Of a stretch of DNA of 64,000 nucleotides, positions 19,645 through 64,000 are shown piece after piece. Both the position numbers and the translations under genes were made by a program. Under the pieces are notes generated by a model. The model saw only the letters and a program-made list of their open reading frames with translations. It had not been told where the DNA came from and did not search any database. Origin of the DNA: Candidatus Edwardsiibacteriota bacterium (GTDB lineage: Bacteria; Edwardsbacteria; AC1; EtOH8). Numbering within the stretch: the first letter of the stretch is position 1; every line of letters starts with the position of its first letter. The DNA is taken from assembly GCA_020053305.1 (NCBI GenBank), contig JAGVNJ010000039.1, forward strand, positions 1 to 64,000, in the 5' to 3' direction.

Positions 19645-19914
19645 TGGTAGCGCTACGGGGAATCCCCGCCTACGGCGGATCCGCCGCATATAACTGCTAT
19701 TATAATGTCTTAGGCGGAGAACCCCGGTTTTGCCGGGCTATCAAAAATCCAGGACAAAACTGGCCGGGCTTCATAAATATGGTAGCGCTACGGGGAATCC
19801 CCGCCTACGGCGGATCCGCCGCATATAACTGCTATTATAATGTCTTAGGCGGAGAACCCCGGTTTTGCCGAGCTATCAAAAATCCAGGACAAAACTGGCC
19901 GGGCTTCATAAATA
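19645..19914 (-). repeat. Two 135-base tandem copies of a T-arm-interrupted tRNA-Glu 3' half
   Basis: Copies 19645-19779 and 19780-19914 differ at one visible base and abut the CCA end of tRNA-Glu. Each ends (tRNA strand) with the tRNA's own 3' end, GATTCCCCGTAGCGCTACCA, and has the T-arm 5' strand CCGGGGTTC, but between TTC and GATTCCCC lies a 54-base insert (19665-19718 in copy 1) with complementary ends CCGCCTA / TAGGCGG. The T stem would extend into a long hairpin. The remaining ~50 bases of the unit are not tRNA. Reading frames through this array are artefacts. Confidence 0.9.
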
Positions 19915-19990
19915 TGGTAGCGCTACGGGGAATCGAACCCCGGTTTGATGGCTGAGAACCATCCGTCCTAGGCCACTAGACGATAGCGCC
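19915..19990 (-). tRNA. tRNA-Glu (CTC)
   Basis: A full cloverleaf on the minus strand: acceptor GGCGCTA pairing with TAGCGCT (one G-U), anticodon loop TTCTCAG (anticodon CTC), T-arm GGGGTTCGATTCCCC and an encoded CCA end (19917-19915). Two 135-base units derived in part from its 3' half follow directly downstream. Confidence 0.95.
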
Positions 19991-24321: not shown

Positions 24322-24395
24322 TGGCTGGGGGACAGGGATTCGAACCCCGATACCATGGTCCAGAGCCATGTGTCCTGCCGTTGGACGATCCCCCA
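24322..24395 (-). tRNA. tRNA-Gln (CTG)
   Basis: A complete cloverleaf on the minus strand: acceptor TGGGGGA / TCCCCCA, anticodon loop CTCTGGA (anticodon CTG), T-arm CGGGGTTCGAATCCCTG and an encoded CCA (24324-24322). Its 5' end is 3 bases after the GIY-YIG stop codon. A second, T-arm-split copy lies at 24636-24785. Confidence 0.95.
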
Positions 24396-24641: not shown

Positions 24642-24785
24642 AGGGTGGGGATTCCCCGCCTAGGTGATGACATAAGGCATGATAAGCGGCGGGTCAGCCG
24701 CCGCTGTGCTGCGTGCATGGCATCAGGCTGAGAACCCCGATACCATGGTCCAGAGCCATGTGTCCTGCCGTTGGACGATCCCCCA
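24636..24785 (-). pseudogene. tRNA-Gln copy split by a 77-base T-loop insert
   Basis: On the minus strand the sequence from 24785 matches tRNA-Gln from acceptor through anticodon (CTG) to GGGGTTC, then a 77-base insert (24655-24731), then GAATCCCC and a diverged acceptor ending in CCA at 24636. The insert begins (plus strand) CCCGCCTA and ends GGCTGA, close to the CCCGCCTA..GGCGGA ends of the tRNA-Glu inserts, and sits at the same T-loop point. It contains nested complementary stretches (TGATG/CATCA, GCGGCGG/CCGCCGC). Unlikely to work as a tRNA; possibly a structured RNA or a scar. Confidence 0.85.
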
Positions 24786-41600: not shown

Positions 41601-41631
41601 AAAAAAACCCCGATTTGATCGGGGCTTTTTT
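41601..41631. terminator. Bidirectional hairpin terminator
   Basis: CCCCGAT / ATCGGGG with a 3-base loop, flanked by a run of A on the left and T on the right. Serves the HD-GYP gene (plus) and the end of the bat operon (minus). Confidence 0.85.
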
Positions 41632-48690: not shown

Positions 48691-49237
48691 TGTCATCCTG
48701 AGTATGACATCACTTCAAACAAATCGAAGGATGGGTCAGACATTCGGATAAATCTCTCCAGTTTTTATTATTTAACTCAATCAAAGTAATTTTCTTTTGG
48801 CGACGCCAACCTTTTATTTGCTTTTCTCTTGCGATAGCAAATCTAACGTCCCTAAAATGCTGATAATAAACAAGGCAATCACACCTATAGATTTTACAAA
48901 ATCCTGGAAGTAATTTTTGCTTGTGCTCAAAAATACCTCTCGTTAAATTATTAGTAACGCCTACATAAAATACCTTGGATTTGTTGGCAACAATATATAC
49001 GTAATAATCTTTCATGTAATAACGTTCATCCCTGAAACTGTAAGGCAGGTGAGCAGTCTATGGATGACGCCGTTTTTATTGTCATCCAGAGTATTGTTGC
49101 TGGTTTGACTAACCGAAGAATGGCTATTAACGAATCCCTTAGCTTGTGAAGCGGGTATGCCTCCTTGGAATGATATATAGTTTGATTAGTATATTCATCC
49201 TTCAGCTTGTCTGGCAGGATGTTTTCTCAGGATGACA
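48691..49237. mobile_element. GIY-YIG cassette bounded by perfect 12-base inverted repeats
   Basis: TGTCATCCTGAG at 48691-48702 and its exact complement CTCAGGATGACA at 49226-49237 bracket the GIY-YIG gene at 48710. The stretch fills the gap between DUF58 (start 48678) and moxR (stop 49248), genes that are normally adjacent. Another related repeat, GTCATCCAGAG, lies at about 49081. The ends resemble a widespread GTCATCCTGAG dispersed repeat family, so the bracket could be two independent copies of it rather than true transposon ends. Confidence 0.5.
48710..49015 (-). CDS. Small GIY-YIG nuclease-domain protein inside the moxR-bat operon
   Basis: A 101-residue UPF0213-type GIY-YIG protein: KDYYVYIVANKSKVFYVGVTNNLTRGIFEHKQK gives the two strands and the following helix; the usual catalytic Arg after the helix start is T-R-G here, and REKQIKGWRRQKK carries the Glu region. 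AT-rich relative to the operon. Same superfamily as the gene at 24399 but distinct. Both sit where they interrupt older arrangements, consistent with selfish small nucleases; no function is proven. Confidence 0.85.
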   Translation of the reverse strand: MKDYYVYIVANKSKVFYVGVTNNLTRGIFEHKQKLLPGFCKIYRCDCLVYYQHFRDVRFAIAREKQIKGWRRQKKITLIELNNKNWRDLSECLTHPSICLK

Positions 49238-63184: not shown

Positions 63185-63580
63185 TTATTTGATGGTTGGG
63201 TTTAGGGCTTTGTTTTGCTGCATTTTAGATTTTAGGCTTTTTTTTAGCCCGCATATCATTTTGCTGATGTCGGTGCAGGTCCCGATTCTGATTTCTGAAA
63301 TCGCAGAGTCAAGATACCTTAAATCACGAATTTTATAAAACCAATTTTCGCTTTCGGCCGTGCTTCTTCGGGCAATGTCCAGATAATGAATGTATTCTTT
63401 GGTAGAAGCTGCGTTGAACCCCTCAGATATATTGGCGCTGACGGAACCGCTGCTACGCAGTATCTGATCGGATATTATTTTTGCCACCCTGGTTGAAGGA
63501 TATTTCTCAACATCAACAGTGATGTCTAAAAACAATCTGTGCGCTTTTTGCCACACTTCAAGCTCGGTAAAACTTTTCAC
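63185..63580 (-). CDS. Four-helix-bundle protein (intervening-sequence family), third copy
   Basis: A ~131-residue member of the same family as those at 12455 and 29583: VKSFTELEVWQKAHRLFLDI, KIISDQILRSSGSVSANISEGF, then EYIHYLDIARRSTAESENWFYKI. I prefer GTG 63580 because the homologous part begins there and a GAGAGGAG site lies just upstream; an ATG at 63649 would add 23 residues. It lies between tRNA-Arg and tRNA-His. Its 3' end runs into TTTAGATTTTAGG and GGGTTTAGGG low-complexity sequence like that flanking the copy at 12455. Confidence 0.8.
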   Translation of the reverse strand: MKSFTELEVWQKAHRLFLDITVDVEKYPSTRVAKIISDQILRSSGSVSANISEGFNAASTKEYIHYLDIARRSTAESENWFYKIRDLRYLDSAISEIRIGTCTDISKMICGLKKSLKSKMQQNKALNPTIK

Positions 63581-63854: not shown

Positions 63855-63950
63855 TGGTCGGGGAGACCCCGATTTTATCGGGGCGACCCCCATAGATTAA
63901 AATGGTCGGGGAGACCCCGATTTTATCGGGGCGACCCCCATAGATTAAAA
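63855..63950 (-). repeat. Two 48-base tandem copies of a tRNA-Pro 3' end with a replaced T-arm
   Basis: Copies 63855-63902 and 63903-63950 are identical and abut the CCA end of tRNA-Pro. Each has (tRNA strand) GGGGGTCG, then CCCCGATAAAATCGGGG, then TCTCCCCGACCA. The intact tRNA has the same flanks around its T-arm, GAGGTTCGAATCCTC, so the 15-base T-arm has been replaced by a different 17-base hairpin while the 3' end and CCA are kept. Three further bases of flank complete the unit. Confidence 0.88.
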
Positions 63951-64000
63951 TGGTCGGGGAGAGAGGATTCGAACCTCCGACCCCCTGGTCCCGAACCAGG
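63951..64000 (-). tRNA. tRNA-Pro (CGG), cut by the window end
   Basis: The 3' 50 bases of a minus-strand tRNA: anticodon stem-loop CCTGG-TTCGGGA-CCAGG (anticodon CGG), T-arm GAGGTTCGAATCCTC, acceptor 3' strand TCTCCCCG and CCA at 63953-63951. The D-arm and 5' end lie beyond 64000. Two 48-base tandem units derived from its 3' end follow. Confidence 0.92.

Follow-up and report, generated by a model that had tools for sequence, protein, structure and literature searches.

Arm-replaced tRNA copies and tRNA-linked small GIY-YIG nucleases in a Candidatus Edwardsiibacteriota bacterium: probable footprints of a little-known mobile element residing in tRNA genes

The stretch of DNA analysed here, to which we refer as the window, comprises the first 64,000 nucleotides of contig JAGVNJ010000039.1 (assembly GCA_020053305.1) of a Candidatus Edwardsiibacteriota bacterium. 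At its far end it reaches into a tRNA gene cluster with the order Pro(TGG)-Pro(CGG)-array-Arg(TCT)-His(GTG), all in one direction. The array joins the 3' end of tRNA-Pro(CGG) with zero gap and consists of two identical 48-bp units (Table 1; TRF: period 48, 2.4 copies, 100% match), as had been noticed in a sequence-only reading of the same DNA. Each unit has the order TTTTAATCTAT + GGGGGTCG + CCCCGATAAAATCGGGG + TCTCCCCGACCA, i.e. it retains the variable-loop side and the acceptor strand including CCA, and carries a palindrome of 17 nt (CCCCGATAAAATCGGGG) in the place where tRNA-Pro has the 15-nt GAGGTTCGAATCCTC, which bears out the earlier claim that the T-arm was exchanged while the flanking parts of the tRNA were kept. 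The 48-nt unit folds as a single hairpin (-22.8 kcal/mol, z -2.8). Between the tRNA-Arg and tRNA-His of the cluster lies an ORF for a 23S-rRNA intervening-sequence protein (four-helix bundle, PF05635, E 2e-25), and an ORF resembling it appears to be present behind tRNA-Met on contig C2 of the same genome; this protein is possibly another guest of tRNA loci.

Table 1. Coordinates of the features discussed (window positions)
Feature	Position	Strand	Remarks
Intact tRNA-Pro(CGG)	63951..64000 (3' part; contig 63951-64027)	minus	gene extends outside the window
Pro array unit 1 (48 bp)	63903..63950	minus	
GGGGGTCG, unit 1	63932..63939	minus	end of anticodon stem and variable loop, kept from tRNA-Pro
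CCCCGATAAAATCGGGG hairpin, unit 1	63915..63931	minus	replaces the T-arm
TCTCCCCGACCA, unit 1	63903..63914	minus	last 12 nt of tRNA-Pro
Pro array unit 2 (48 bp)	63855..63902	minus	identical to unit 1; hairpin 63867-63883, tail 63855-63866
Intact tRNA-Glu(CTC)	19915..19990	minus	
tRNA-Glu unit, first copy (135 bp)	19780..19914	minus	...AAACCGGGGTTC + 54-bp palindromic T-loop insert (19800-19853) + last 20 nt of the tRNA (19780-19799)
tRNA-Glu unit, second copy	19645..19779	minus	insert 19665-19718, tail 19645-19664
Altered tRNA-Gln(CTG) copy	24732..24785	minus	tRNA nt 1-54, up to T-loop ...GGGGTTC
77-bp core	24655..24731	minus	at T-loop centre of the altered tRNA-Gln copy
GIY-YIG nuclease ORF, 80 aa	24399..24641	minus	between altered and intact tRNA-Gln
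Intact tRNA-Gln(CTG)	24322..24395	minus	
Second GIY-YIG ORF	48791..49006	minus	non-tRNA lineage
23S-rRNA intervening-sequence protein ORF	63185..63580	minus	between tRNA-Arg and tRNA-His

Hairpins of the type CCCCGAT-N(0,24)-ATCGGGG match three times in the window, with 0.04 expected, and 24 times in the whole source genome, versus 0 for the reversed control pattern. The possibility that the hairpin is simply a common transcription terminator that happens to follow tRNAs, which the sequence-only reading had itself raised, fits a few copies: at window position 41608 and at C26:36639 the hairpin is followed by a T-run as in a normal terminator; in all, two of the three genomic matches away from tRNA and tmRNA loci resemble ordinary terminators. 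In the units, however, no T-run follows the hairpin and the T-arm is replaced exactly; a terminator scan at the Pro units yielded just a weak alternative hairpin, formed with the tRNA tail. Because the acceptor strand of the tRNA (TCTCCCCGACCA) follows the hairpin and 21 of the 24 genomic copies lie at tRNA or tmRNA loci, we reject the hairpin as a terminator only, an explanation that is hardly credible. A hairpin of this type also comes after the tmRNA gene (L078, G000:C23:5263-5367), as it does after several tRNAs.

Two other tRNA loci of the window had been read as carrying downstream copies altered at the T-arm. For tRNA-Glu(CTC) this is correct, in that two copies downstream of the intact gene carry a 54-bp insertion in the T-loop. 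The tRNA-Gln(CTG) locus is built differently: a promoter region is followed by a tRNA copy that is broken at the axis of the T-loop by a 77-bp core, then by an ORF for a GIY-YIG nuclease and only then by the intact tRNA, so that the altered copy is situated upstream. A group I intron in a tRNA gene can be set aside as an explanation, since the inserts (mostly 17-110 nt) sit in extra tRNA copies with an intact tRNA adjacent, and Rfam gave no group I or group II intron match in the Glu, Gln and Pro loci.

To place these loci in a genomic context, we analysed the source genome (G000; 2.59 Mb, 77 contigs, 43 tRNA genes) and two further genomes of the same genus (G001 and G003; 41 tRNAs each); counts outside the retrieved loci are based on pattern searches. 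In a strict test, which requires that 11 nt or more of a tRNA's own 3' end, including CCA, recur without mismatch within 800 bp downstream, copies were found behind 11 of 43 tRNAs in G000, 10 of 41 in G001 and 8 of 41 in G003. Together these are 29 of 125 tRNAs, versus 31 of 4,984 control pairs in which a tRNA was compared with the region downstream of a tRNA for another amino acid in the same genome (Fisher 4e-32). If imperfect copies, copies on the upstream side and units truncated at contig ends are included as well, about 19 of the 43 loci of G000 are affected, as judged by eye. A chance origin is ruled out by the tandem match, the excess of hairpins in the window and these statistics.

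The lengths of the 35 copies fall into classes: 21 are of 20 nt, 2 of 19 nt, 1 of 16 nt and 11 of 12-14 nt. Twenty nucleotides from the CCA end is the position between C56 and R57 of the T-loop, i.e. the axis of the palindrome GGTTC|GAATCC, and in this class an insert of approximately 50-150 bp, starting with TCCGCC or similar and ending with GGCGGA, is found at the axis. In the 12-14-nt class the T-arm has given way to CCCCGAT-n-ATCGGGG, namely at Pro, Ala-CGC, Val-TAC, Glu-TTC and Thr-CGT, and at Phe and Arg-CCT the same type of hairpin has taken the place of the anticodon arm. The core sequences are common to different tRNA loci and nearly absent elsewhere in G000, the core pattern being restricted to tRNA loci bar two chance matches in coding sequence. 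Inverted pieces of tRNA, replacements of the D-arm and 5'-side copies are also present within units. The argument that the same alteration at several tRNAs points to one mechanism, made originally from three loci, is thus strengthened by the number of affected tRNAs, by the recurrent breakpoints and by the presence of the same hairpin in the arms of seven tRNAs.

An exact tRNA 3' end that is displaced while an intact tRNA is retained is the classic outcome of integration by elements whose attachment site is a tRNA 3' end, and the T-loop is a known crossover position for integrases. The units might accordingly be footprints of integrase-driven elements, either island- or tycheposon-like or MITEs that are moved in trans by a tyrosine recombinase. 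We nevertheless regard this as very improbable: the units measure 48-750 bp and contain at most a GIY-YIG ORF and no integrase, the tail is particular to each tRNA, and the inverted tRNA pieces, the anticodon- and D-arm replacements and the 5'-side copies are not produced by tail-swapping integration.

Many contigs of G000 terminate 79-87 bp behind a tRNA, and repeat arrays at this position are places where short-read assemblies break. The arrays at Thr-CGT, Glu-TTC and Phe resume at the ends of other contigs with a matching unit, so the true arrays are longer than assembled. Contigs C5, C9, C17, C37, C47, C51, C58, C62 and C67 of G000 end at most about 90 bp behind a tRNA or within an array.

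Comparison of orthologous sites within the genus revealed that the units are polymorphic in their presence. The two 135-bp units at Glu-CTC in G000 have empty counterparts in both G001 and G003, and the Pro-CGG locus, with its two units in G000, is empty in G003 and shows signs of decay in G001, where the CCA ends of the array have deteriorated. Gly-CCC is filled in G001 only, Tyr is empty in G003, a 3'-side unit is found at Gln-TTG in G000 only and at Gln-CTG in G001 only, and Leu-CAA is a further locus with filled and empty orthologous sites. In each filled/empty pair the flank of the empty site comes right after the last displaced CCA, which fits the insertion of a block that ends in a tRNA 3' end. 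Outside these genomes, a Gln-CTG unit is present in G005 and the Ser-TGA unit in G008, from another genus of the same family, where both tRNA and unit read GAATCC instead of AAATCC. As the orthologous Pro locus of G001 has the CCCCGAT..ATCGGGG hairpin unit too, the Pro array is not an assembly artefact.

The same comparison bears on the idea that the units are selected as RNA, i.e. that they are transcribed with the tRNA operon and processed to CCA-ended hairpin RNAs, similar to rtT of E. coli, which would regulate the processing or charging of tRNAs or act there as decoys. The E. coli precedent, the shared orientation of the units and the surrounding tRNA cluster, the stable fold of the Pro unit and the retention of CCA ends and tRNA-complementary stretches in many units are all in line with it. 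Yet the presence of units differs freely among congeners, shuffled sequences fold as well as the 135-nt Glu unit (z -0.9), and the decay of the Pro array in G001 together with its absence from G003 argues against an essential function of the array, so that a selected RNA appears improbable.

At several loci an ORF of 80-99 aa for a GIY-YIG nuclease, which abuts or overlaps the 5' end of the tRNA, lies between the intact tRNA and a broken copy. Such ORFs are present at Gln-CTG (the window locus), Ser-GCT and Phe in G000, at Gln-TTG, Gln-CTG, Phe and Asn in G001, and at Gln-TTG and Ser-GGA in G003. The small ORFs score 43-69 bits against PF01541 (cut-off 22.6), which places them in the GIY-YIG superfamily; in their alignment Y6, Y17, H31 and E63 are invariant and R27 is nearly so, and the conserved GIY/YIG tyrosines, Arg and Glu presumably have the catalytic role that is known from I-TevI and UvrC. 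Of about 25 small GIY-YIG ORFs, nine have a tRNA at a distance of no more than 500 bp (binomial 3e-10). Those linked to tRNAs in the three genomes, among which L179 was assigned on the basis of flanking Ser-type repeats at a contig end, form one clade (support 98/94; 1 change vs 8.2 in shuffles), and they are under purifying selection (dN/dS 0.16-0.24 in three orthologous pairs). This clade is a candidate for the common agent behind the altered copies.

In a comparison of the nuclease profile with solved structures, UPF0213 and SLX1 were the best matches and the I-TevI domain was marginal (E 0.006). The ORFs comprise the catalytic domain only, without the separate C-terminal DNA-binding domain of GIY-YIG homing enzymes, and score far under the cut-off of the group I intron endonuclease model. 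A role as a defence system was considered and dropped, as PADLOC returned only weak matches. A phage vehicle was likewise rejected: only distant GIY-YIG relatives were found, and the three viral loci have no tRNA nearby.

Small GIY-YIG ORFs that are not linked to tRNAs tend to have other palindromes as flanks (GTCATTGCGAG..., GTCATTCCTGCG...), and small GIY-YIG genes may generally partner palindromic repeat families. For instance, inverted intergenic palindromes (GTCATTGCGAG..GCAATC or GTCATTCC..GGAATCC) adjoin the ORFs L189, L194, L183, L181 and L184 (G000/G001), L311, L242 and L243, all of which lie away from tRNAs. The second GIY-YIG ORF of the window belongs to the non-tRNA lineage and is closely followed by a sequence of the CTCAGGATGAC type.

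The association recurs outside the source family. We searched 60 genomes, one per family and all from other families, with a profile of the tRNA-linked ORFs, the ranking being blind to tRNAs, and the best matches turned out to sit at tRNA genes beside hairpin-altered copies. In G010 this holds for four of four matches: at tRNA-Asp the anticodon side is exchanged for TCCCGATGGTTCGGGA, at tRNA-Ala the anticodon arm is replaced, and at tRNA-Pro the T-arm is exchanged for TCCCGAAGCTTCGGGA upstream and for TCCCGAAAGTTCGGGA downstream, which is the same construction as found at the tRNA-Pro of the window. At tRNA-Asn the D-arm and anticodon arm are replaced in both G001 and G010, in each case by the genome's own palindrome. 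Further cases are tRNA-Pro in G081 (an altered copy with TCCGCCGGAGGCGGA), tRNA-Gly in G018, tRNA-Met in G054 and repeated broken tRNA copies in G068. In G010 and G018 the ORF overlaps the 5' end of the intact tRNA in such a way that its stop codon is the TAG of the D-loop, an arrangement seen in the ORFs L227, L229 and L255. In a tree of 63 proteins, adjacency to a tRNA is found for 20 of 23 members on one side of a weakly supported split (81/49) and for 4 of 40 on the other (p = 1e-9).

The arm-replacing palindrome is of each genome's own type. That of G010, TCCCGA-n(2-6)-TCGGGA (16-18 bp), occurs at 238 places genome-wide, mostly within intergenic repeats where sampled, unlike the palindrome of G000, which is nearly exclusive to tRNAs. 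Spread of the exact hairpin unit to other phyla was rejected, a strict pattern scan of contigs having produced two matches of chance or unassigned origin: one is at the start of a coding region in a Euryarchaeota MAG, and the other is in a Woykebacteria MAG (L097 5051-5084), where GGTCGCCCCGATCCAATCGGGGTCTCGCGCTCCA lies about 600 bp behind a tRNA-Gly and has a tail that differs from that tRNA. A third match, in G047, has no tRNA nearby. Outside the source family, sequences matching core B seem to be coding and are not more frequent than matches to the reversed control. In G060, a relative of the tRNA-linked ORFs (L238, G060:C79:4386-4625) is seemingly positioned within a 23S rRNA gene, as judged by eye from the flanks, between the complementary CACCTAAATCACTTC and GAGTGATTTAGGTG.

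Taken together, the arrays were probably left by a mobile element, so far little known, that resides in tRNA genes, and we estimate the probability that the Pro units are ORF-less remnants which originated from such a tRNA-dwelling GIY-YIG element at roughly 60%. The mechanism, like the single agent and its action, we infer from anatomy and association. In its full form the element would consist of a small GIY-YIG gene between an intact tRNA and at least one broken copy with a palindrome in the T-, anticodon or D-arm. In view of the similarity to UPF0213 and SLX1, the latter a nuclease of branched DNA, and the missing DNA-binding tail, the nuclease would open extruded or palindromic arms of tRNA genes, the commonest breakpoint being the T-arm's axis of dyad symmetry, TTC|GAA; this structure-specific cleavage step is a tentative proposal. 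Repair would then copy nearby homologous or palindromic DNA, i.e. element sequence plus a tRNA end, into the break, the outcome being an intact tRNA and a displaced second tRNA end. Recurrent cleavage and unequal repair could expand the units in tandem, template switching during repair would fit the inverted tRNA pieces, and at the Pro locus, where the ORF is absent, a 48-bp unit has been duplicated.

Several observations count against an element. Each displaced tail matches the local tRNA exactly, as would be expected from duplication in situ no less than from import; no GIY-YIG ORF is present at the tRNA-Pro locus, and hairpin units without an ORF outnumber those that bear one; the C-terminal part with which characterised GIY-YIG homing enzymes bind DNA is missing from the ORFs; and the G010 palindromes are dispersed away from tRNAs, with the 23/40 split of the tree being weak. 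It could thus be argued that no dedicated element exists: ordinary recombination would duplicate tRNA genes in tandem, the spare copies would decay, arms would be replaced by hairpins through template switching between palindromes during replication and insertion of dispersed mini-palindromes, and the GIY-YIG ORFs would be passengers. The exact tails and the dispersed palindromes agree with this, as do the inverted tRNA pieces, which fit template switching, and the decay of the units in G001. We nonetheless consider it unlikely in the light of the exact breakpoint at the T-loop dyad across many different tRNAs, the cores that are common to tRNA loci and nearly absent elsewhere in G000, and the specific GIY-YIG clade at tRNAs in several families.

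Returning to the mobile element, a still more speculative extension would be a widespread and undescribed class of elements in which a minimal, structure-specific GIY-YIG nuclease of the SLX1/UPF0213 type is guided by the capacity of DNA to form hairpins instead of by its sequence, opens the palindromes of tRNA arms at the dyad axis and swaps in the palindrome of the element, with duplicated tRNA genes as protected residences; other small GIY-YIG genes with GTCATTGCGAG-type flanks could then be sister lineages that have adapted to intergenic repeats.

The displaced T-loop end is already known from one classic locus. Behind tyrV of E. coli MG1655 we measured that the final 19 nt of tRNA-Tyr recur three times, at a spacing of 178 bp; as in these distal repeats of tyrTV (rtT/RttR RNA), the units at Glu-CTC and other loci are tandem and end in the tRNA's own T-loop-cut 3' end (20 nt), whereas the Pro units keep only 12 nt. 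The E. coli repeats concern one tRNA in one genome region with no nuclease ORF annotated, and the likeness drawn here is that of the displaced tRNA end. Short palindromes in many copies, possibly moved in trans by a nuclease, are also known as REP/BIME, REP-RAYT and Rickettsia palindromic elements; the palindromes described here resemble REP/BIME in these respects and differ in being concentrated in tRNA arms and linked to a GIY-YIG nuclease instead of a RAYT transposase.

A GIY-YIG gene among tRNAs is familiar from T-even phages, whose SegB protein is larger than the tRNA-linked ORFs. In the available excerpts of its descriptions, SegB is a free-standing homing endonuclease in a tRNA cluster that is implicated in cutting tRNA-containing DNA and drives tandem amplification of tRNA and segB, with microhomology between the 5' end of the tRNA and the 3' end of segB (PMC13096335; PMC2988022). 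The ORFs described here similarly abut or overlap the 5' end of the tRNA; unlike them, SegB is phage-borne, and those excerpts hold no swapped-arm broken tRNA copies. In fungal mitochondria, mobile ORFs (Allomyces atp6; Glomus atp6, atp9, cox2 and nad3) bring a substitute 3' end of the host gene along with an endonuclease, and the native end is displaced downstream (PMC3630166). There too the spare 3' end keeps the host gene functional; these elements occupy protein genes, however, and their inserted 3' ends are diverged, whereas those observed here are identical to the local tRNA. In the open-access collection searched, we came across neither arm-replaced tRNA copies nor a minimal GIY-YIG clade linked to tRNAs, which is weak evidence as subscription papers and preprints are mostly outside it.

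Genes for tRNAs are classic harbours of mobile DNA, known to accommodate islands that an integrase carries in and introns that splice themselves. The units described here point to an apparently common and nearly gene-free resident that breaks into hairpin arms and, in several bacterial families, goes together with a nuclease of only 80-100 residues. If true, this would explain the long-known odd repeats behind tyrT of E. coli, as well as assembly breaks just behind tRNA genes, and it would provide a function for many small GIY-YIG (UPF0213-like) genes that are now filed as DNA-repair or unknown. It would also connect the spread of short palindromes with a structure-specific nuclease in a way that can be tested.
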